64,000 nt of DNA. It comes from Elusimicrobia bacterium GWA2_56_46 (GTDB taxonomy: Bacteria; Elusimicrobiota; Elusimicrobia; Elusimicrobiales; UBA9959). The stretch is from NCBI GenBank assembly GCA_001799575.1, contig MGTT01000020.1, positions 62,001-126,000 of the forward strand, read 5' to 3'. Both the position numbers and the translations under genes were made by a program. Shown here one piece after another: positions 25,965-64,000 of the stretch. Below the pieces are notes generated by a model. The model saw nothing but the letters and a program-made list of their open reading frames with translations, ran no database searches and had not been told where the DNA came from. Numbering within the stretch: position 1 is the first letter of the stretch; the number at the start of each line of letters is the position of its first letter.

Positions 25965-27536
25965 TTATTTCACCTGCTTCAGGAACTGCCTGACTATGCT
26001 GTTGTTGGGATTTATCTCCACGACCTTTTCCCACATAACCCGGGCTTTCTCTTTCTGGTCCATGAGGAAGAAAGCGCTGCCCATGATCTCAAGCGCGGTC
26101 TCGTTATTGGGCTCCAGATCCAGAATGTCCTGGGCGCGTTTCATGGCAAGGTCGTACTTGCCGTCGTAGATGGACTGCCTGGCGTCGTAGGTTCTCTGAT
26201 CGATATAGGTGAAGATCTCCGGGCCCTCGGGCTTGCGGGTCGGCTCCGAGACACTGGCCTCTTTCTCTATCATGTTGAGCAGCGAGAGCAGCCTGTCATT
26301 CTTGGGATCCTTGTTGAAAGCGTGCCGCAGGATGTTGACGGAATTCCTGAGGTCTTTGCCGTCCACGTAGGAGATGATGCCCCTCCTGGTGAGGGTGGGC
26401 ACTTCTTCCCCGCCCGTGGCGTCCGGCACGAATTCCACGGCGGTCTGCAGGCGGTTGAGCATATTCTTGACCTCGGCGTTGCCCGGGTCGGCGTCCATGG
26501 CCGATTTCAGTTTCTCTATGGCCCTGGTGAAATAGCCGGATTTGAAGTACTGGAGGGCCTGACGGACGATCTCGCGGATCTCGCGGTCGTGCTTGGCCTT
26601 GTTAGACTGGCCCATGCGCATGGTGACCGAGAACCTGGTGGTGGAGCCGAGCGCGTGCACGCCCTGCGCCAGGTCGAAGCCGAAATTCTTGTACTTTATG
26701 CCCAGGCCGAAGTCCGCTTCCTGGATGGCGGGAGAGCCCTGGACGCCGAAGCGGATGGCCGACCAGTACAGGAGCCAGTATTCTCCGCCGAACCTCCAGT
26801 TCATCCCGGCGCCCTGGGGTTTGGCGGCGTCCAGCCCGAACACCAGGCTGCCCTTGAACAGGCTCAGGGCCTGGCCGAACTTGAGGGTCAGCGGCAGTTT
26901 ATCGTCGGTGTCTCCGGAAGACATGGAAACCACGTTCTGCGCGCCCATGGCCACCCGGTAGAGCTTGGAGAACTTGTGGAGCATGGTGATGTCCACGGCG
27001 TTAAAAGAGTCCTTGGAAGTATCCAGCGAGCGGGAGATATTCTTTACCATGACGCCGAAAGAAAGCTTGTCGGAAACGTCCCGGCCCCAGGAGAAAGCCA
27101 GCGCCCGTTCCACGCTGTCGAAGCTGCCGAGGGTCTTGACGGACATGATATCGGGGCTGGAGGGATCCACGGTGATCGAAACCTTTTCAAAACCGACGCT
27201 CTTGAGCTGGGTCATGCTGACGGCCCACGTGCCGTTGGAGGTGGTGGGGTGGGCGTAGGTGAAGAAAGAAAGGGTGGTGTCGGCGAACAGCGTGGCCTGC
27301 ATCGCGGTAAACTCTTTCCTGGTCAGCAGGGTCAGCGCAGCCGGGTTCCAGTAAGAGGCGGAAGCGTCGTCCGCCACGGCGAAAAAAGCCCCGCCCATGC
27401 CGAGGCCGCGCGCGCCGGCGCCATAAGCCATGAACTGCCCGGGCTGGCCGCCGGATTGCGCAACGAGGGATGAGGGATGAAGGATGAGGGATGAAAACAG
27501 GAAAATGGAAAGCCCCGCGGCGGAAACAAAGCGCAT
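25965..27536 (-). CDS. PorV/PorQ-family outer-membrane protein with C-terminal TPRs (module 1)
   Basis: A 523-residue protein. The signal peptide starts MRFVSAAGLSIFLFSS. The following 320 residues have the PorV/PorQ (UPF0164) beta-barrel pattern: GARGLGMGGAFFAVADDASA and YWNPAAL near the N-terminus, ending in an aromatic strand. The last 180 residues are periplasmic TPR-like helices (LDLEPNNETALEIMGSAFF). PorV-type barrels carry type IX secretion substrates in Bacteroidota; whether that applies here is open. An ATG at 27599 would add 21 residues, but it lies between the riboswitch and a small hairpin. It is 55 bases upstream of the FliF-FliG gene and shares its promoter. Confidence 0.85.
   Translation of the reverse strand: MRFVSAAGLSIFLFSSLILHPSSLVAQSGGQPGQFMAYGAGARGLGMGGAFFAVADDASASYWNPAALTLLTRKEFTAMQATLFADTTLSFFTYAHPTTSNGTWAVSMTQLKSVGFEKVSITVDPSSPDIMSVKTLGSFDSVERALAFSWGRDVSDKLSFGVMVKNISRSLDTSKDSFNAVDITMLHKFSKLYRVAMGAQNVVSMSSGDTDDKLPLTLKFGQALSLFKGSLVFGLDAAKPQGAGMNWRFGGEYWLLYWSAIRFGVQGSPAIQEADFGLGIKYKNFGFDLAQGVHALGSTTRFSVTMRMGQSNKAKHDREIREIVRQALQYFKSGYFTRAIEKLKSAMDADPGNAEVKNMLNRLQTAVEFVPDATGGEEVPTLTRRGIISYVDGKDLRNSVNILRHAFNKDPKNDRLLSLLNMIEKEASVSEPTRKPEGPEIFTYIDQRTYDARQSIYDGKYDLAMKRAQDILDLEPNNETALEIMGSAFFLMDQKEKARVMWEKVVEINPNNSIVRQFLKQVK
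27465..27492. repeat. Four tandem heptamers within the PorV-TPR signal peptide
   Basis: GAGGGAT, GAGGGAT, GAAGGAT, GAGGGAT (plus-strand reading) encode part of the signal-peptide core SSLILHPSSLVAQ on the minus strand. The unit is the same as in the 19-copy array at 51701. Gain or loss of one copy would shift the frame. Confidence 0.75.
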
Positions 27537-27592: not shown

Positions 27593-27607
27593 GTTTCATT
27601 ATGTTTT

Positions 27608-27690
27608 TCGGCAGCCTGACCCCCGCATACGTCGCGGGTCTTGGCTTTGCGCCGCCGGCTTTCGCCGGCTTTGCTATTATCGTAACACTC
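27608..27690 (-). promoter_or_regulatory. Cyclic-di-GMP-I (GEMM) riboswitch
   Basis: The minus-strand RNA contains the GEMM core: GCAAAGCC, then the P2 stem GCCGGC-GAAA-GCCGGC with its GNRA tetraloop, CGCAAAGCC, the P3 stem GACCCGC / GCGGGGGUC, and AGGCUGCC at the 3' side. The bases equivalent to G20, A47 and C92 of the Vc2 aptamer are G, A and C, which predicts c-di-GMP rather than cGAMP binding. It lies about 30 bases after a canonical promoter and before the PorV-TPR, FliF-FliG and coiled-coil genes, so it should set their expression according to c-di-GMP. Confidence 0.93.
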
Positions 27691-27802: not shown

Positions 27803-27989
27803 TTAACCTGAAAACTTCAGTTGAAGTTTTCCGCCCGCATAGCGGGCGCCCTCCGGGAGGCATACACCTCGTCGGGCCAGGCGCGCATAGCGCTGGGCCC
27901 GACGCCCGCTTCGCGGGGAATCCTGCAGAATAATTCTGTCCGCCTGATTTTCCTATGGAAACCGCTTCCAACTGCAGGATTCAGGTTAA
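27803..27989. repeat. 187-bp multi-hairpin repeat element, copy A
   Basis: It begins TTAACCTGAA and ends TTCAGGTTAA. Inside are a 7-bp stem (AAACTTC/GAAGTTT), CGCCCGC/GCGGGCG, CCTCCGGGAGG, a long stem CGTCGGGCC/GGGCCCGACG, CCCGC/GCGGG and a closing AATCCTGCAG/CTGCAGGATT. A second copy of identical length lies at 37111. It fills most of the gap 27756-28009 and codes for nothing convincing. Confidence 0.85.
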
Positions 27990-37041: not shown

Positions 37042-37106
37042 CAGTTGGTGACAATTTGTCACCAACTGGAATCACGAGCAGAGTCGGTTACAAGATGCAA
37101 CCGACT
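37042..37106. repeat. Two palindromic modules, relics related to the BRO-family gene
   Basis: CAGTTGGTGACA-ATT-TGTCACCAACTG (37042-37068) is a perfect palindrome; AGTCGGTTACA-AGA-TGCAACCGACT (37082-37106) has one mismatch. The stretch translates in one frame as QLVTICHQLESRAESVTRCN, closely like the segment SVTKCNQLK of the BRO-family protein at 38656. It ends five bases before repeat copy B. Confidence 0.7.
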
Positions 37107-37110
37107 GAAA

Positions 37111-37297
37111 TTAACCTGAAAGTTGCGGTTGCAACTTTCCGCCCGCACAGCGGGCGCCCTCCGGGAGGCATACACCTCGTCGGGCCGGGCGCGCATAGCG
37201 CTGGGCCCGACGCCCGCTTCGCGGGGAATCCTGCAGAATGATTCTGTCCGCCTGATTTTCCTATGGAAACCGCTTCCAACTGCAGGATTCAGGTTAA
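37111..37297. repeat. 187-bp multi-hairpin repeat element, copy B
   Basis: The same length, ends and stems as copy A at 27803. The first hairpin differs on both arms (AAGTTGC/GCAACTT against AAACTTC/GAAGTTT), so pairing is kept; most other positions are identical. Together with the flanking palindromes it fills most of the gap 37032-37433. Confidence 0.85.
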
Positions 37298-37351
37298 CAG
37301 AGTTTTTTTATTTTGCCATGAAGCCGATCCGTTTGGGCGGATTCTCCTGGG

Positions 37352-37385
37352 GATAAATGGGATCAGGTCTTGAATCTTGAATTTC
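37352..37385 (+). repeat. Left direct repeat flanking the ChaN-like gene
   Basis: The segment containing GATAAATGGGATCAGGTCTT recurs with one substitution and one indel over 34 bases at 38593-38625. The GGGTCAGGTCTTG core is, from memory, frequent near REP-associated (Y1) transposases. Confidence 0.7.
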
Positions 37386-37433
37386 AGGTAAAGAACGAGG
37401 CTGATTTTTGGACGCAGCTTGAGGAGGATTGTA

Positions 37434-38594
37434 ATGATCCATGGATTGATAGGGCCTTTGATACTATTTGCCGCGGTATTGCTGAATACCGCGAGCATAT
37501 CTGCCGCCGCGCCGGCCCCGGATCCGGACGAAGCCGCGTTGCCTTATTCCGATTTTCTCGCCGCCAAAAGCTCCGCGCCGGTTGATTATATAATAAGTAA
37601 ATTCCGCGACTATCAAGTCGTATCAATAGGCGAAATACACGAAAATGCCAATTCCCTCGATTTTTTGCAGGCAATTCTAAAGGATCGGCAGTTTATAGAA
37701 GAAGTCGGCGTACTCGTTTGGGAATTTGGAAGTATCCAGGATCAAAACATCGTGGACCGGGCGCTGAATGCGGAACAGTGGAATGACAAAGAACTCATAT
37801 CTGCGTATAAACGACACACTCATCCCTGGGGCTGGCCTTTCAAAAACTATATAGATGTGTACCACACGGCCTGGAAAACAAATCATTCCGGGCAAGGGAA
37901 GATAACGATCATCAATGCGGATGTCCCTATAGATTGGGGGGCGATAAAATCGCGTGAAGATTATGAGAAAGCGATGTCCAAACGCGACGAGCATATGGCC
38001 GGGGTTATCGAAGACAGAATAATCAAAAAAGGGCTTAAAGCTCTTTTCTATGCCGGTGAAGGACATGCCAACAAACTTAACGCGAACAAAAAGCGCAATA
38101 CGGCGCTTAATCTGCTTTTAACAAAATATCCGAACAAAATATTTTCGATAACTCTTCATAAAGAGGCCGGTTATGACGAGAGCGCGGCCCAATATCTCAG
38201 AGTTTGCGACGGCTTATTTGATTATGCTTTTAACCTCAACGGCAGCGCCAAGCCGACCGCTTTTGATTTAAACGACAGTCCTTTTGGGCGCATAGACGGC
38301 AAATGCGCTCAATTCATACCTGCCGGGTATAAATTGCAGGAGATGTATGACGGTTATGTGTATCTCGGCCCGCTGGAAAATTACAGACATGTGGATTTTA
38401 TAAAGGGTTTTTATGACAAAGCATATTTAAAGAAAGTGGCAAAAAGAACAAAACTGGCTTTCGGACAAGAACTCACTGAAATATGCGGGATCAGCGCTGT
38501 TTCGGAGTTCCCCGCCTTTTGGGAAAACTCCGGAAAAACAACCAGGAAATTCCAGCCAATAGACGCCTGGAAAACAAAAAGCGGCCCAGGGTGA
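37434..38594 (+). CDS. Secreted ChaN/EreA/TraB-superfamily-like hydrolase
   Basis: A 386-residue protein with a signal peptide (MIHGLIGPLILFAAVLLNTA). Residues 63-70 (SIGEIHEN) and a later GEGHANK give the Glu/His pairs of the ChaN/Tiki/erythromycin-esterase-like superfamily, which includes haem-binding lipoproteins and hydrolases. The lipobox cysteine of ChaN is absent, so it is probably soluble periplasmic. GAGGAGG six bases before the ATG at 37434 decides the start over a TTG at 37419. The gene is bounded by direct repeats and has AT-rich codon use, consistent with transfer. The exact activity is uncertain. Confidence 0.65.
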   Translation: MIHGLIGPLILFAAVLLNTASISAAAPAPDPDEAALPYSDFLAAKSSAPVDYIISKFRDYQVVSIGEIHENANSLDFLQAILKDRQFIEEVGVLVWEFGSIQDQNIVDRALNAEQWNDKELISAYKRHTHPWGWPFKNYIDVYHTAWKTNHSGQGKITIINADVPIDWGAIKSREDYEKAMSKRDEHMAGVIEDRIIKKGLKALFYAGEGHANKLNANKKRNTALNLLLTKYPNKIFSITLHKEAGYDESAAQYLRVCDGLFDYAFNLNGSAKPTAFDLNDSPFGRIDGKCAQFIPAGYKLQEMYDGYVYLGPLENYRHVDFIKGFYDKAYLKKVAKRTKLAFGQELTEICGISAVSEFPAFWENSGKTTRKFQPIDAWKTKSGPG

Positions 38595-38625
38595 TAAATG
38601 GGGTCAGGTCTTGAATCTTAATTTC
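38593..38625 (+). repeat. Right direct repeat flanking the ChaN-like gene
   Basis: GATAAATGGGGTCAGGTCTT and the following AT-rich part repeat the sequence at 37352. It starts within the stop codon of the ChaN-like gene (TGA 38592-38594). Confidence 0.7.
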
Positions 38626-51700: not shown

Positions 51701-51836
51701 CTCATCCCTCATCCCTCATCCCTCATCCCTCATCCCTCATCCCTCATCCCTCATCCCTCATCCCTCATCCCTCATCCCTCATCCCTCATCCCTCATCCCT
51801 CATCCCTCATCCCTCATCCCTCATCCCTCATCCCTC
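51701..51836. repeat. 19-copy heptamer tandem array (CTCATCC)n
   Basis: 136 bases of almost perfect CTCATCC units between the stop of the giant protein and the start of the second PorV-TPR gene. The sense strand of the flanking genes reads GGGATGA repeatedly, so G3 runs are spaced by four bases throughout: a long G-quadruplex-type motif. Copy number should vary between strains. Confidence 0.95.
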
Positions 51837-51840
51837 TCCC

Positions 51841-57800: not shown

Positions 57801-60800
57801 CGGTCAGGCCGCTCCATAACGCGCCAGCGCCGTTCGGCGTAAGCGTCAATTTTGCGTACGACAGCTTCTGGCCCTGCACTATCGTAGTGTGCGGCGTATC
57901 GGTGACAAGCGCGCTTATTATCAGCGGCACCGTGCGCGTGGAACCCGCGTAGGTATAATCGGTATAGACATAAGAACCGTTCCGCGCTATCACGCGCGCG
58001 TAATAGGTCGTATTGGGCGACAGGCCGGTGAATGTGGCGTAATTGACCGCGTACATCGCCTGCGTGGACACAGTCGTCAGGTTGAACCCGGACGTGGTGG
58101 ACAGCTCGCAGAAGTATTGCGTGGCTGCCGGGTTGTCCGGGGCCGTCCAATCCACGCGCAGCGCCGATACGTCCACATTATTGAACACGGCCGCGGCCGG
58201 CTTTATGGCGCGGGTGTGCTTATCCGCCATGTTGGAGTACGACTCACCCAAGGCGTTATACGCCGAGACCCTGTAAGAGTAGTAGCTGTTTGTGGACAGC
58301 GACACTGCCGGGTAGGACACGGCATCCGCGCCTAAGGTGGCTATCAAACCCTCGTTCTGATAGACGCGGAAACCAAGCTCGTCATTTGAGTTATCGGTCC
58401 AGGACAGATCCAGCTTATAACCTGAAACAGCGTCCGGATAGCCGATCGTCAAACCGCTCGGCGCGGCCACGCCGGGCATGGTCTCGGTGGACGGCAGGAC
58501 GGCCCAGCCGGTTTCAAGCGGCGCGGCGTTATAATTGCGCGCTTTGGCCCTGAAATAATAAGTCGTGGCGGCCGACAGTACCGTGAAGTTATATGAGTTT
58601 ATCGTCGTCCAGCCGGAATCGGCCGTGTCATAGACGTAATCCGACGATGACGAGCGCTGCACCAGATACTCCGTGCCGTCCGGATTTCCGCTCTTGGACC
58701 AGTTCACCTGTACCGAATTGGCCGTGCGCGTGTACTGCCCCAGCGGGCCGCCCGGCGGCGCCGCGCGCGTGTACTCGCTGTAGAGCGGCACATTGCCGGT
58801 TTCCACGTACGAACTGTTGCGCGCGCGCACACGGATGTAATACCGCGCGTTGGGATCAAGACCGGTGTAACTCTGGCTCGTTATATCAACGCGCCAACTG
58901 GAGCTGGCCAGGATGACCGAGAAATCGGACTGCGCGGACAGCTCGCTTAGATACTGGACGCCCGCCGCGTTGTTCATATTCCATTTAGCCGTTATGCTGC
59001 TTGAGTATATCTCGGGCGTTACGCCTACCGGCGCGTTGGAACGCGTCTGCGTGGACGGCAGCACATACCACGACGCGCCGGCCGGGGATTCAATATTGGC
59101 CTGGTTGCGCGCTTTGATGCGGAAATAATAAGTAGCGTTCGTCTGCAGCGTGTCGAATACCCGCGAACTGATCCCCACCTGCCAGCTCGTATCCACGTCC
59201 ACCACGCCGAAGCCGACATCGTCGCGCGCGGAACGCTGCACCCGGTACTGAGTATAGCCGGGATTGGTTTTAACATCCCAGCGCAGCGTCAGGCTGGAGG
59301 CGTATACGTCATAAGGCGTAAGCGGGTCGCCGGGGATCTCGGCCAGCGTAAGCGCGGGGCCGGCGGGCATAGCGGTGGACGTGGCCACGCCGCTCGCGTT
59401 CACCGCTTTGATACGGAAATAATACGACGAATCGGGCGTCAGCGAAGTGATAACGGCAGATACGGCCAGCGTCGTGCTGGACAGGATCGCCGCGTTGAAG
59501 TCGGACGAGGTGGACAACTCGGCCACGTACGACGTGCCCGCCGAATTGCCGGAACCCGACCAGCCCACCGAGGCCGACGACGCCCACACCTGGTTGAAAA
59601 CAGTTGAAGCGGGCGCCGCGGACAACGTAGGCGTGGCGCCCAGCACCGAATAATCCGTCCACACACCCAGGTTATTGGCGGCTTTTACACGCGCGTAATA
59701 CGTTATATTGGCCGATAAGCCGGACAGCGTAGCGTACGCGTTATAGGTCTGCGACGACGCCGCTATAATACCGAAGCCGGGAGCAGACGACAACTGCACC
59801 AGATACAACGCGCCCGGGCCGTTATACCCGCCCTGCGCGCTCCCGGACGACCACGCAAATGTCAACGCGTCCGCATAAGCCGCCGTAAACGAGGCCGGGG
59901 CCGTCGCCATAGCCAATGTATAAGTGGACACCGTCACCGATTCAGACGATTCGTAACCGCCATAGTTGCGCGCCTTGGCTTTGAACGCATACTGCGTATT
60001 CGGCGTCAGCCCGCCGAATACAGAGGTGACACCGGGGTCGTAGGCTTCGTTGGCGGCCAGCGGGGAGCCGCCGCCGTCCCTGCCGCCTATCGCATACAAC
60101 TTGCCGTCCACGACAGCGGCAGCCAGGTAGGCGCGCGCCGTGGATATAGGCGACTTTGTGGCCCAACTATTGGTCACCGGGTCATATTCCTCATTCTTAC
60201 TAACCACGGAGCCGTTGTCACCGCCGACCACGTATATCTTGCCGCCGATAGCGGCCGCGGCCAGAAGATTTCGCGCCGTCGGCATAGCTGTTTTGGCTAT
60301 CCAGCCATTGGACGCAGGGTCGTATTCTTCGTTCAGCGCGCATATGCCGCCGCCCGCGTCACGGCCGCCGATCCAATACACCTTGCCGCCTATCTCCGCG
60401 CCGGCATGAAGAACACGCGCCGCCGGCATATCGGCCTTGGCCGCCCAGGTATCGGTTACGGGGTCATACGCCTCGTTGGCGCTCAGCTTCAACGCGCCGT
60501 CATCGCCTCCGGTCGCATATAACTTCCCACCCGCGGATATGGCGGCCAGGGCTTCGCGCGCGGTCGGCATCGCGGCTTTTGCCGACCATGTGTTCGCCGC
60601 GGGGTCGTATGCCTCATTATTATTCAGCGCGGCCGAACCGCTCCAGCCGCCTACCGCGTACAGCTTGCCGCCGGATGAAGCGGCGCTCAACGCCCAGCGC
60701 GCGGTCGGCATAGCCGCCTTCGCCGACCAGACATTAGCGACGGGGTCATATTCTTCGTTCGCGGCGCTGGCGCCGGAAACATAGCCGCCTACCCCATAGA

Positions 60801-63800
60801 TCTTCCCGCCCACCGCGGCCGCGGCCAGGTAATAACGCGCCGCCGACATAGCGGTCTTGCCGGCCCAAACATTGCCGCCGGTGTGCCAGCCCGCATATGC
60901 GCCGTCTTTGGCCACGTTCACGCCGGATTGGCCCTGCTCCAGATTGGCGAACACAGGCGCGTAGGCTGACGCGGTTATCGCGGCCGTGCTTACCTCGTCA
61001 AATACGATATTAGACGGGATAGGCGCGGCCGTGCGCGTGGAGATAACGGCCGAATAATACGTGTCGGAATCGGTGGACACTTTTACCTTGAAGTAATAGC
61101 TCGTGTTGTCCAGCACGGAGTACGTCGCCGTCTGCTGGCCGACCGAACCCATGGCGGACGACACCGTTACGCTGAAATCGGGAACCGTCGAGATGACCAT
61201 CCACGGCGCTTCGGTCGCGGGCGTGTCCAGTTCCCACGACACACGCGCCAACGTGCTCGACACATACACCCATTGCACATTGGACGGCAGCTTCATAGCG
61301 GTAGTGGTCGAGCCCAGCGGCGTATAATCGCCGGACACGCCCAGCGTATTGAGACCGCGCACGCGGAAATAATAGAGCTTCTCGGCGCTAAGGCCGGTTA
61401 GATCGGCTGTCAGTCCGGCCGTATTGGACGAGCCCCAGACCGGGATAAACGCGTTATTGGTGGACGCCTGCACATCATAGCGCGCGCCGGATCCGTTGAA
61501 GCCTCCTGCTGAAGTGCCCGAAGACCACTGTACGCGCACATGGTTCCATTCATTCTGAACGAACGTGATCCCGGACGCGGAAACAGTGGCCACCGCCAGG
61601 GTATAAGTCGAGACGGTTACAGACTCGCCGGTTTCGGCCCCATTGACGTTCCGCGCCTTTGCTTTAAACGAATACTGCGTATTCGGCGCCAGGCCGCCGA
61701 ATACAGTCGCCACACCGGGGTCGTAGGCTTCGTTTATGTTACTTCCACCCACAGCGTACAGTTTCCCGCCAACCAGTGCGGCACCCAAACCGTACCGCGC
61801 GGTCGGCAGCACTGTCCTTACCGCCCAAGTATTCGCCGTTGGATCATACTCTTCGTTTACGTTGAGGTTAGGTCCGTTACCCCCGCCCACCGCGTACAAC
61901 TTGCCTCCGACCGCGGCGGCGGCCAGATAGGCCCGCGCGGTCGGCATTACAGCTTTTGCCGCCCACGTATTTGAAACTGGATCATAAACTTCGTTGGTAT
62001 TAAGGTATCCCCCGTTATTCCCGCCCACTGCGTACACCTTGCCGCTGATTGCCGCGGCGGCCAAAGACATTCGCGCGGTCGGCATTGCCGCTTTCGCCGC
62101 CCACGTATTCGCCGCGGGATCGTACTCTTGGTTTACATTCAGGTCGGAACCGTTGCTTCCGCCTATTGCGTACAGCTTGCCTCCGATCGCGGCGGCGCCA
62201 AAACCCTCGCGCGCGGTCGGCATTACAGCTTTTGCCGCCCACGTATTCGCAACTGGATCGTATGCTTCGTTGATATTCTTGAAAGAACCGTCATATCCGC
62301 CTACGGCGTACAGCTTGCCGTCTATCGCGGCGACGGCCATACCATACCGCGCCGTCGGCATTACGGTTTTTGATACCCACGTGTTCGCCGCAGGGTCGTA
62401 CTCTTCATTCGTGTTTTTGTAACCCGCATTATCCCCGCCGATAGCGTACAACTTGCCGCCAATCACGGCGACCGCCAACTGTGCCCGCGCGGTCGGCATC
62501 ACGGCTTTTACCGTCCAGCTATCACCGTAAACATGCCACCCGGCGTATGTCCCGTCTTTTGCTATATTTGTGGCCGATAAACCCTGGTTAAGTTTTGTGA
62601 AGCCAGGCGTGGCCGCGTACGCCGAGGCCGTTATCGCCGCGGTGCTTATCTCGTCGAACACTATATTTGTGGGCGTCTCAATGCCGCTGAGCGTGGAACC
62701 GATTACCGCATAATCGGTCCACACATTGACCGCGTTGGCCGCCTTGACGCGGAAATAATAGGTGGTTTGCGGCAACGTTATCCCGGATATCGCGGCGGAC
62801 AGATCAGCCGTCTGCGCCGACCCGGCTATGGCGGCGAAATTGGAACTGCTGGAAGCCTGGACAAAATACGTGGCGCCGGGGCCGTTGAAGCCGATGGAAG
62901 CCGACCCGGACGACCAGGCAACCGTTATACTGCCGTCATTCACAGCCGGGAACGTGGCCGGCCCGGAAGCCACCGCTAAGGTGTAGGTGGAGACGGCAAC
63001 AGATTCGCCGGTCTCAGCCCCGTTGATACCGCGCGCCTTGGCCTTAAATGAATACTGCGTATTAGGCGCCAGGCCGCCGAATACAGCGGCCACGCCGGGG
63101 TCGTAGGATTCGTTTTGGTTTTGCCCCCCGGTTGCTCCTCCCAACGCGTACAGCTTGCCGCCAACGGAGGCGGCGGCAAACCGAAACCACACGGTTGGAT
63201 TCGCAGCTTTTATCGCCCACGTATTCGCCGCGGGATCGTACTCTTCTGTATCGGCACCCACAGCGTACAGCTTGCCTCCAATGGCCGGGGCAGCGAAATA
63301 AGAGTGCGTGGTCGGCATCGCCGCTTTTGTCCCCCACGTATTGGCCGCGGGATTGTATTCTTCGTTTACCAACCCTGTTCCATCATCCCCGCCCAGCGCA
63401 TACAGTTTACCTCCAACCGCAGCGGCGGCAAAATAGCGCCGGGGGGTCGGCATCGCCGTCTTTGACCCCCAGGTATTCACCGCAGGATCGTATTCTTCGT
63501 TCGTGTTCAGATTAGAGCCGTTGTTTCCACCCACCGCGTATAACTTACCACCCAAAGCTACAGTGGCCAAACCGGTCCGTGCGGTGGGCATCACCGCTTT
63601 TGTCACCCATATATTAACCACGGGGTCGTACTCCTCATTTGTGCCCATGTAAGATACACCGTTATTTCCGCCCACAGCGTAGAGTTTGCCTCCAATTGCC
63701 GCAGCGGCCAAAGCATACCGCGCGGTCGGCATCACCGCTTTTATCGCCCACGTATTAGCCGCAGGATCGTACTCTTCGTTTTTGTTCAGCGGGCCGTACC

Positions 63801-64000
63801 CGCCCACCGCGTACAGCTTACCGCCAACAACGGCAACGGCCAAATCATACCGCGCCGTAGGCATCACCGCTTTTACCGTCCAGCTATCGCCATAAATATG
63901 CCACCCGGCGTATGTCCCGTCTTTTGCTATATTTGTGGCCGATAAACCCTGGTTAAGTTTTGTAAACCCGGGCGTGGCCGCGTACGCCGAGGCCGTTATC
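51841..64000 (-). CDS. Giant Kelch/FN3 surface protein with FlgD-like C-terminal domain (5' end outside window)
   Basis: At least 4,052 residues; the frame is open to the right edge, and the sequence at 63868-64000 is in frame and repeats an internal module, so the true start lies outside. From the visible N-terminus: three Kelch propeller blocks (about 20 repeats of the GGKLYAVGG...NEEYDPAANTW type) alternating with FN3-like domains; a run of FN3 domains; then about twelve beta-sandwich modules of about 150 residues with acidic turns (LYRDDNGNG..D-like) that may bind calcium; two more FN3-like domains; and a last 85-residue Ig-like domain (VYPNPFDSRKGVATIHF, YDIYGRKVRSL, GKKVSKGIYIGVL) of the FlgD/type-IX-sorting type. 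Probably an exported adhesin, with the adjacent PorV-TPR as partner. No cysteine-rich or lipid-anchor motif is evident. Confidence 0.88.
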   Translation of the reverse strand, partial: ITASAYAATPGFTKLNQGLSATNIAKDGTYAGWHIYGDSWTVKAVMPTARYDLAVAVVGGKLYAVGGYGPLNKNEEYDPAANTWAIKAVMPTARYALAAAAIGGKLYAVGGNNGVSYMGTNEEYDPVVNIWVTKAVMPTARTGLATVALGGKLYAVGGNNGSNLNTNEEYDPAVNTWGSKTAMPTPRRYFAAAAVGGKLYALGGDDGTGLVNEEYNPAANTWGTKAAMPTTHSYFAAPAIGGKLYAVGADTEEYDPAANTWAIKAANPTVWFRFAAASVGGKLYALGGATGGQNQNESYDPGVAAVFGGLAPNTQYSFKAKARGINGAETGESVAVSTYTLAVASGPATFPAVNDGSITVAWSSGSASIGFNGPGATYFVQASSSSNFAAIAGSAQTADLSAAISGITLPQTTYYFRVKAANAVNVWTDYAVIGSTLSGIETPTNIVFDEISTAAITASAYAATPGFTKLNQGLSATNIAKDGTYAGWHVYGDSWTVKAVMPTARAQLAVAVIGGKLYAIGGDNAGYKNTNEEYDPAANTWVSKTVMPTARYGMAVAAIDGKLYAVGGYDGSFKNINEAYDPVANTWAAKAVMPTAREGFGAAAIGGKLYAIGGSNGSDLNVNQEYDPAANTWAAKAAMPTARMSLAAAAISGKVYAVGGNNGGYLNTNEVYDPVSNTWAAKAVMPTARAYLAAAAVGGKLYAVGGGNGPNLNVNEEYDPTANTWAVRTVLPTARYGLGAALVGGKLYAVGGSNINEAYDPGVATVFGGLAPNTQYSFKAKARNVNGAETGESVTVSTYTLAVATVSASGITFVQNEWNHVRVQWSSGTSAGGFNGSGARYDVQASTNNAFIPVWGSSNTAGLTADLTGLSAEKLYYFRVRGLNTLGVSGDYTPLGSTTTAMKLPSNVQWVYVSSTLARVSWELDTPATEAPWMVISTVPDFSVTVSSAMGSVGQQTATYSVLDNTSYYFKVKVSTDSDTYYSAVISTRTAAPIPSNIVFDEVSTAAITASAYAPVFANLEQGQSGVNVAKDGAYAGWHTGGNVWAGKTAMSAARYYLAAAAVGGKIYGVGGYVSGASAANEEYDPVANVWSAKAAMPTARWALSAASSGGKLYAVGGWSGSAALNNNEAYDPAANTWSAKAAMPTAREALAAISAGGKLYATGGDDGALKLSANEAYDPVTDTWAAKADMPAARVLHAGAEIGGKVYWIGGRDAGGGICALNEEYDPASNGWIAKTAMPTARNLLAAAAIGGKIYVVGGDNGSVVSKNEEYDPVTNSWATKSPISTARAYLAAAVVDGKLYAIGGRDGGGSPLAANEAYDPGVTSVFGGLTPNTQYAFKAKARNYGGYESSESVTVSTYTLAMATAPASFTAAYADALTFAWSSGSAQGGYNGPGALYLVQLSSAPGFGIIAASSQTYNAYATLSGLSANITYYARVKAANNLGVWTDYSVLGATPTLSAAPASTVFNQVWASSASVGWSGSGNSAGTSYVAELSTSSDFNAAILSSTTLAVSAVITSLTPDSSYYFRIKAVNASGVATSTAMPAGPALTLAEIPGDPLTPYDVYASSLTLRWDVKTNPGYTQYRVQRSARDDVGFGVVDVDTSWQVGISSRVFDTLQTNATYYFRIKARNQANIESPAGASWYVLPSTQTRSNAPVGVTPEIYSSSITAKWNMNNAAGVQYLSELSAQSDFSVILASSSWRVDITSQSYTGLDPNARYYIRVRARNSSYVETGNVPLYSEYTRAAPPGGPLGQYTRTANSVQVNWSKSGNPDGTEYLVQRSSSSDYVYDTADSGWTTINSYNFTVLSAATTYYFRAKARNYNAAPLETGWAVLPSTETMPGVAAPSGLTIGYPDAVSGYKLDLSWTDNSNDELGFRVYQNEGLIATLGADAVSYPAVSLSTNSYYSYRVSAYNALGESYSNMADKHTRAIKPAAAVFNNVDVSALRVDWTAPDNPAATQYFCELSTTSGFNLTTVSTQAMYAVNYATFTGLSPNTTYYARVIARNGSYVYTDYTYAGSTRTVPLIISALVTDTPHTTIVQGQKLSYAKLTLTPNGAGALWSGLTVRRQGTGSDADLSRVAVHRDGNSNGAYEAGNDPEISGAWGVFAASEAALTLNETLNSAATYFVTLTCADNYLSWPGNSVGITITSTASLASPNSIYTLNTQPFSSSLSTITKLADTLDVTWLNQAPSPNVSRGTDNLAFLRLTLAAARDRVYLNSLTLDKLGTLADAYVPYVKVYRDDNQNGTLDAGSGDSLVSSGVDGFSSGQAVINLAASSTRTVISDVYFVALDLAANAPLGATVGVRVQSAGSFAVMAGMPDVVSMSVSPADSGLPSVSDPPNTLLVTGTDLGVTTVEQGALRALEKLELTSDSGSALWSLLKVQRSSSSADADYASISLYRDNAPLGAFDPATDTRVASGTFSAGLVTWSLSETILNTSTKTYFIAAGISPSANTSAQAGVKLQTGYIDAASDATAIGAVFPMISSFAQITATVDTIVVTPDVSVAPASAYQSAVNVPVLALKMFTDRNGGSVSGVNITQAGSAQDGDIAALKIYLDDGDNVLDASSDTLVSGNYAFSAGTASVSFNTLQSITVSSSVYFIAAEIAAAAVPGRTLGARVSGASAFSVIAPDTLTSTFPITGNLITLEKAPAVVLISTSSTAPASAQPGTQDILMERLGVHTSQSAAVMNSVSLVRNGGADSYISGVALYLDANGDALPAAGELVSSGVFSGGALTLPFTGASGALTTESKVYLVTMGIAASAPPGAYLGLNFQSIALGGSGDSIEPGRLPFASPSVQVSEPPNNLLVTAVDQGVLTVEQGTTHALERLDLTADIGSAVWNLLKVQRSTTSLDADYSSVSLYRDNAPLGVFDTGTDVRVASGVFSSGLVTWSLSESILNTSTKTYFIVVGIAPNANTSSLARVGLQSGYITAAGANTTVAAQYPIYSSLAAITPTIDVVVVTPDVTAGAAAAYQAAVNVPVLALKMFTNRNAAELSAVTLYEAGTAQDADISAVKLFRDDGNGTFNAAADTLVSGNYAFSGGTATVSFNTLQSVDVSSSIYFIAADVAGAAVPGRTLRVGINGTSDFSVLAPDLLTSTFPIISNEVTLEKVTASVLVSTLSLAPASAQAGAQGILMERLQLRTNQSTALMNSVSLVRAGGLDADVSRVALYWDVNVNGVMDSGELVSSGVFSGGSVSLPVTGAARELSVSSKTYYAVIDLSPSAVVNDTLALTFTAISLAAPDGIEAGRLPFTSGSVAVAEPPSALVPAFESRLNSQVTQGDVSALVAVATISATAFSVNWNRLDALLTGTCTDACVSALNLYRDDGNGAWGGPAQEIFVSSGVFTAGLSSLNLAGQTVTYPQTKLYYISADISASATLGATFGISLPAASYLGVSAPDTVSSPAGVFAFNSAQAVIDATVDTLEIAHTDLAPAVKQGDVSKAIGRLTLHALSNSAELAGVRFDKTGTAVDADITGIRLYYDSNADGAFQAGDTLAASASGLSNGAVNLLVSPPQSVGTADKSYFVVVDLSSQATVGATLGLTASAGYFSVVAPDLVALAVSPVSFSIAGVISDSSDTVKLAFTDLASTSLYQGRTNSAMAKLRLWTTQDSAELTGLKLSLNGSAALSDLGTVKLYRDTDGNGVFSADSDSLAASGNFASSLLTLTLSAPGALGAAPADYFLTLDIAASAVIGGTAGLVISDESGILLAGSDKAEAFSALATTVGTIRDPRVPTPPVLQLYKANGELFGAEAAAYNAYKSRMRFNWESTVMTGSLEQVYYYVGGAPANGATPAADWKSGGLSRDVWGTGLELLQAGGYYLCVRTKNSLGDYYSDIVCRQFTVDSMIPQLAGVSAAREAETVILNWDPASAGPSGVTYYRVEERKADSPVWTQISISDSRTIIIGNGPSGVSRAAARFKTAAVISRVPGTYYYRITPVSGAGLEGTPTEPLKVDLLLAALAAVSDLSVYPNPFDSRKGVATIHFQLNSAGAASLKIYDIYGRKVRSLDSAADTVHDMKWDGADSSGKKVSKGIYIGVLETGGTTEKLKIGVIH
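62506..64000. repeat. In-frame 1,365-bp repeat within the giant gene
   Basis: The stretch at 62506-62640 recurs almost identically at 63871-64000, an offset of 1,365 bp or 455 codons. It covers the linker IAKDGTYAGWH and the first strands of the Kelch block. A third, more divergent module edge is near 60850-61010. Confidence 0.8.

Follow-up and report, generated by a model that had tools for sequence, protein, structure and literature searches.

What kind of element are the two nearly identical, strongly palindromic repeats found in a 64,000-nucleotide stretch of the genome of Elusimicrobia bacterium GWA2_56_46 (contig MGTT01000020.1; hereafter, the window)? A preliminary description, made from the sequence alone, proposed a MITE, a REP-like island mobilised in trans or a structured RNA. 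We conclude that the element is very probably a non-autonomous MITE of 179 bp, which an IS1380-family DDE transposase would move in trans and whose hairpins would be exchanged at the DNA level. A 4-bp target-site duplication, inverted ends of the IS1380 type, dispersed copies and element-free sites all support the first of the three proposals. The element thus adds what appears to be an IS1380-linked MITE family in uncultured Elusimicrobia. It is also a warning case, since strong covariation in a palindromic mobile element can arise from the en bloc exchange of DNA hairpins.

Structure and ends of the element

The two copies (27803–27989 and 37111–37297) are each 187 nt long and align without gaps at ~95% identity. 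They have the equal length, the locations and the common ends (TTAACCTGAA and TTCAGGTTAA) that had been assigned to them. However, 187 is the length of the repeat and not of the element proper, which measures 179 bp; the outermost 4 nt on each side are a target-site duplication. TTAA is not part of the element, since other copies are flanked by CTAA/CTAA, TTAG/TTAG or CTAG/CTAG (Table 1). Terminal inverted repeats of the form CCTGAA-N5-CAGTT are present at both ends. Directly upstream of copy 2 are two similar tandem hairpins with different arms (CAGTTGGTGACA... and AGTCGGTTACA..., at 37042–37068 and 37082–37106).

Table 1. Features of the two element copies in the window
Feature	Position	Strand	Basis
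Left target-site duplication TTAA, copy 1	27803–27806		sequence; same 4-mer on the right; target-site duplication statistics
Putative MITE copy 1, 179 bp, CCTGAA...TTCAGG	27807–27985	+	sequence, genome copies, target-site duplication comparison
Left end hairpin, copy 1: terminal inverted repeat CCTGAA-AACTT-CAGTT with inner arm GAAGTTTTC	27810–27831	+	fold, consensus fold, pair counts (helix 2)
GC-rich branched middle, copy 1: several short hairpins and one long covarying stem (helix 6)	27832–27917	+	fold, consensus fold, pair counts
Right end hairpin, copy 1: right terminal inverted repeat with inner arm GAATCCTGC	27918–27982	+	fold, consensus, helix 9
Right target-site duplication TTAA, copy 1	27986–27989		sequence, target-site duplication comparison
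Left target-site duplication TTAA, copy 2	37111–37114		sequence, target-site duplication comparison
Putative MITE copy 2 (L007), 179 bp, left hairpin type AGTTG	37115–37293	+	sequence, target-site duplication comparison
Right target-site duplication TTAA, copy 2	37294–37297		sequence, target-site duplication comparison

Copy number and host range

The genome to which the window belongs (G000; 2.66 Mb in 30 contigs) contains 26 matches to the element at E≤1. Eleven of these are full-length copies, nine matched over 185–187 nt and two longer (237 and 283 nt) that carry additional hairpin modules; the remaining matches are truncated copies, short palindromes or weak matches. The 11 full-length copies are dispersed, near-identical and without a transposase gene, as is usual for a MITE, and further copies are found in relatives. 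The repeat is therefore not confined to the two copies from which it was first described.

A DNA search at E≤0.001 located the element in 23 of 61 genomes, its own included. When 340 genomes of the phylum were searched at E≤1e-6, it was found in 37, and all 37 belong to the family of the window (59 genomes searched). A scan of public bacterial genomes with a 26-mer pattern gave no matches, and a scan with a second pattern gave 20 stretches, from Elusimicrobia MAGs or MAGs labelled only 'bacterium'. No matches to the element were found in plasmids, phages or viral contigs, the last scanned with one pattern. In G022, contigs C9, C10, C16, C25, C39, C42, C49, C60 and C87 start ~96–119 nt inside the element, as would be expected if numerous near-identical copies had interrupted the assembly.

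Other types of MITE have the same ends and unrelated middles, such as those of 114 and 147 bp in G026, which are flanked by equal YTAR. Only five sites in the 59 genomes have a short 28-bp palindrome with YTAR on both sides, and at three of them the two flanks are equal; these rare palindromes may have arisen by deletion instead of being mobile in their own right.

Target-site duplication

Flanks were compared for 56 copies with a BLAST match over nearly the whole element, 11 from the own genome and 45 from relatives. The ends were anchored by BLAST, and the full-length places at G008:C34, G026:C60 and G026:C20 were left out. The flanking 4-mers are equal in 37 of the 56 copies, compared to a mean of 16.8 and a maximum of 28 in 10,000 shuffles of the right side. 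They are equal in every one of the 11 own-genome copies, with TTAA, CTAA, TTAG and CTAG all represented, while the 4-mers immediately beyond them agree in none (0 of 56). Left-right identity per base is 0.82–0.96 within the 4 bp and 0.05–0.34 outside. For the 27 copies with a left 4-mer that is not self-reverse-complementary, the right 4-mer is the same in 13 and its reverse complement in 1. The target-site duplication, for which the preliminary description had suggested looking, is 4 bp long and has the form YTAR. The 19 copies with unequal flanks count against this reading, and probably reflect decay or exchange.

A TA-only target duplication was replaced by the 4-bp YTAR after the CTAA/CTAA and TTAG/TTAG pairs were seen. 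A MITE of the Tc1/mariner (IS630) type with TA as its target, as in Correia/NEMIS or RUP, is very improbable here. TA does lie within the duplicated 4 bp, and the size is usual among bacterial MITEs, as far as these are covered in the available text of PMC2229807. However, the identity of the flanks reaches the outer Y and R (0.91 and 0.82, respectively), the duplication comprises 4 bp and not TA only, and the transposase found beside these ends is of the IS1380 family (see below).

The duplication also bears on the proposed REP-like island, that is, an element moved as single-stranded DNA by a hairpin-recognising Y1 (RAYT) transposase. Y1 transposase domains are present in 49 of the 59 family genomes, and the structure of the hairpins is conserved and forms on either strand. 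To our knowledge, however, REP/RAYT movement is not expected to duplicate its target, and we know of no target-site duplication in REPs. Moreover, four MITE-bearing genomes (G002, G081, G035 and G080) have no Y1 match, and copies are numerous in G002. We therefore give this reading hardly any weight. An integron attC site, considered from the folded-repeat appearance, was dropped, as the copies are dispersed and have target duplications.

Insertion sites and stop codons

Element-free sites were found in relatives and in the own genome. The flanks of one copy (L005), joined without the element, match G001:C34 and G005:C39 continuously over the join; the coding flanks align well, and the spacer has diverged too far for a base-exact junction. 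Copy 1 of the window lies in a multi-copy repeat, and its joined flanks match four own-genome places (40–53 nt) across TTAA. This ~100-nt palindromic repeat (query 505–641) has many copies in G000 and G005. Copy 2 of the window (L007) has the same 179-bp sequence as L008, a copy that lies on a different contig, yet their duplications differ (TTAA and CTAA, respectively), which points to recent movement as far as can be judged from sequence. Across the joined sites of the own genome, no open frame longer than 60 codons is found in 10 of 11 cases, and the remaining site (L009) has a frame of 359 codons.

As YTAR contains TAA or TAG, some insertions would fall exactly on the stop codon of a gene and leave the stop intact. 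A TAR stop lies in the duplication on 102 element sides. For 12 of them, the frame that ends at this stop stays open for 90 codons or more upstream, compared to 2 and 3 in the other two frames; most flanks in this count are just 100 codons long. One own-genome copy (L010) coincides with the stop codon of a gene that is open over 474 codons and whose end we take to be the C-terminus of an aminoacyl-tRNA synthetase. The equivalent site in G001 holds a copy that is reversed in orientation, a sign that insertion near this stop codon may have occurred more than once. The same gene end has a copy on it or adjoining it in three genomes (G000:C10, G001:C101 and G004:C144).

An IS1380-type transposase with the same ends

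The end pattern TARCCTGAANNNNNCAGTT is found in 27 of the 59 family genomes, and a reversed-pattern control in none. When 12 genomes were searched for DDE transposases, two genes beside such ends came to light. The first (L124, G000:C10) is split in two frames and has such ends on both sides; the second (L114, G024) has one such end. The transposase with these ends belongs to the IS1380 family, with an NCBIfam equivalog score of 256 bits (cut-off 180) and a match to Pfam DDE_Tnp_1_4. An intact relative of 75% identity has both ends (L143; G081:C87, 764–2304), as does a relative of 53% identity from another family of the class (L295; G230, 1226–2934), which is flanked by CTAG on each side. A gene remnant in G022 (L146) has one such end, and a further IS1380 element (L296) has such ends at one end. 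In these insertion sequences, as in the MITE, the bipartite CCTGAA-N5-CAGTT adjoins YTAR. The flanks are TTAG and CTAA at L143, and TTAA and CCCC at L124; a 4-bp duplication at the level of the insertion sequence is seen only at L295, where CTAG is its own reverse complement. The ends are absent from nine other IS1380-like loci of the family (L303, L304, L305, L307, L308, L310, L311, L312 and L316), a contrast that proves less as some of these loci are incomplete or truncated at the end of a contig.

The common ends make the IS1380 subgroup that carries them the likely driver of the MITE. Its transposase would recognize the bipartite CCTGAA-N5-CAGTT ends, cut at CCTGAA and insert the element at YTAR (TTAA, CTAA, TTAG or CTAG), with those 4 bp being duplicated. 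The main weakness of this assignment is that strong relatives of the transposase occur in just 3 of the 59 family genomes, compared to 37 genomes with the MITE. Beyond the ends, similarity between the MITE body and the insertion sequence is weak and local (best shuffle p of ~0.01, most 0.1 or worse), and the body does not appear to be clearly derived from the insertion sequence by internal deletion. YTAR is also a target of IS5, and an IS5 origin was considered on that account; it was dropped, as the ends belong to IS1380 elements.

Fold and covariation

Both copies fold far more stably than shuffled sequences, with z of −8.5 for the RNA fold of copy 1 (+ strand), and −7.4 and −7.1 for the DNA fold of copy 2 (+ and − strand, respectively). 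A structure alignment was built from 56 copies, nine of them from the own genome (L010 and L013 were left out owing to their inserts, and L251 and L252 were added). The consensus has 45 pairs, with 98.2% of cells paired and 19 of the 45 pairs changed on both sides. None of 500 shuffles attains such values, and every slid control falls far below them; the pairing and covariation of the element are thus real. The joint change in the first stem, AAACTTC/GAAGTTT against AAGTTGC/GCAACTT, from which compensatory change had initially been proposed, is confirmed. Just two copies, with covariation ending there, would have spoken against that proposal; instead, the copies are many and the covariation extends much further.

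The left arms comprise 10 types of N5, perfectly mirrored by the inner arm in 53 of 56 copies, whereas a fraction of 0.22 would be expected with shuffled arms. Two copies (L002 and L005) have 0 differences outside the left hairpin and 6 within it, which make up three complete base pairs. With every one of these three pairs changed and the rest of the element identical, the left hairpin has changed en bloc. Stepwise compensation is unlikely, as the rest of the element is untouched, and block exchange fits. Thus, paired change stands as first described, while its reading as folding kept by stepwise compensation is the less likely one.

A functional structured RNA, either cis-regulatory or a small RNA, that travels on a mobile carrier would offer another source of covariation, namely selection for RNA folding. 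The very stable fold, the pairing and two-sided change given above and the nearly invariant sequence of the middle hairpin and its loop would all be expected of it. An RNA made from one strand should tolerate one kind of mismatch (G-U or A-C) more than the other. By parsimony, however, there are 9 G-U and 17 A-C mismatch events over the 38 pairs predicted from both strands, and 31 and 29, respectively, over the union of 48 pairs. The two kinds are about equal, without a clear strand preference, and the tilt of 9 to 17 is too small to settle the matter; this argues for changes at the DNA level. In addition, the arms change as a block in otherwise identical copies, no Rfam family reaches threshold in a search over the element, and the ends are common to several MITE types with unrelated middles. 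We therefore consider a functional RNA improbable: the strong covariation noted in its favour holds, and is more simply read as block change. Judging from the sequence comparisons, the paired changes are better explained by hairpins swapped whole in DNA. The L002/L005 case implies that covariation scans of bacterial intergenic repeats should test target-site duplications and strand symmetry before a structured RNA is called.

In the proposed IS1380-driven MITE, each end sits in its own hairpin, such that the variable N5 is nearly always mirrored by the inner arm. The hairpins would stay palindromic and be exchanged as units, probably through recombination between copies or through template switching between inverted arms. 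Template switching of this kind homogenises arms and inverts spacers, as described in the accessible part of PMC8604942. One copy (L034) has an inverted loop, AACT in place of AGTT, which fits template switching as a single case. A different role for the hairpins is conceivable, though unlikely: the end hairpins could themselves be the recognized objects, CCTGAA and CAGTT being read within a folded end (cruciform or single-stranded) by a host factor or a DDE transposase of the IS1380 type. N5 would then change only together with its mirror arm, and the hairpins would act as exchangeable end cassettes. More speculatively, the hairpins of the MITE may promote or impede binding of the transposase, or terminate transcription.

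Comparison with known systems

The putative driver resembles insertion sequences of the IS1380 family in its NCBIfam equivalog transposase, similar length of the ends and short target duplication. IS1247 of Paracoccus, a member of this family, is listed in Table 2 of PMC3281130 with 1672 bp, inverted repeats of 16/13 and a direct repeat of 5. In contrast, the 179-bp element lacks a transposase gene, and its duplication is a 4-bp YTAR. IS1380 serves as the bacterial outgroup of piggyBac in the available text of PMC10813416, which gives the piggyBac target as TTAA, occasionally TTAG and CTAA. The element shares with piggyBac a 4-bp duplication centred on TTAA with the variants TTAG and CTAA, but differs in its bacterial host, its ends and its IS1380-type transposase.

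Stable stem-loops are already known from other MITEs, according to the portions of PMC10969869 and PMC2229807 that were available. Correia/NEMIS, ERIC and RUP, as presented in the latter, are similar in their size of ~100–200 bp, terminal inverted repeats, stable stem-loops and movement in trans. However, their terminal motif is TA, and RUP is associated with IS630, whereas the element has a 4-bp YTAR and IS1380-type ends. REPs of the GTAG family are likewise palindromic, with termini that can supply the stop codon of a neighbouring gene (accessible text of PMC3733652); unlike REPs, the element has a target-site duplication. The accessible text of PMC10969869, a review of prokaryotic MITEs, does not mention IS1380. 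In the text available, the family of the element was not described, whether the literature was searched for MITEs together with IS1380 or for miniature and repeat elements of Elusimicrobia.

Other features of the window

A c-di-GMP-I riboswitch is located ~120 bp from copy 1 (27607–27685, − strand). Between the two is a perfect match to a TTGACA-16-TATAAT promoter (27755–27728, − strand). Riboswitch and promoter lie upstream of an ORF resembling TPR/outer-membrane proteins. A second repeat family, of 7-nt units (CTCATCC, CTTTAGCC), is found at 27465–27494 and 51701–51840. Beyond copy 2, a 35-nt direct repeat of 89% identity (37349–37383 and 38590–38624) flanks an ORF (37419–38594) with a weak match to the ChaN/Tiki Pfam family, and the next ORF has a Bro-N domain. 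At the end of the window (60083–64000), more than a dozen DNA repeats of ~138 nt lie within a very long ORF of at least 4008 residues, which runs off the window.
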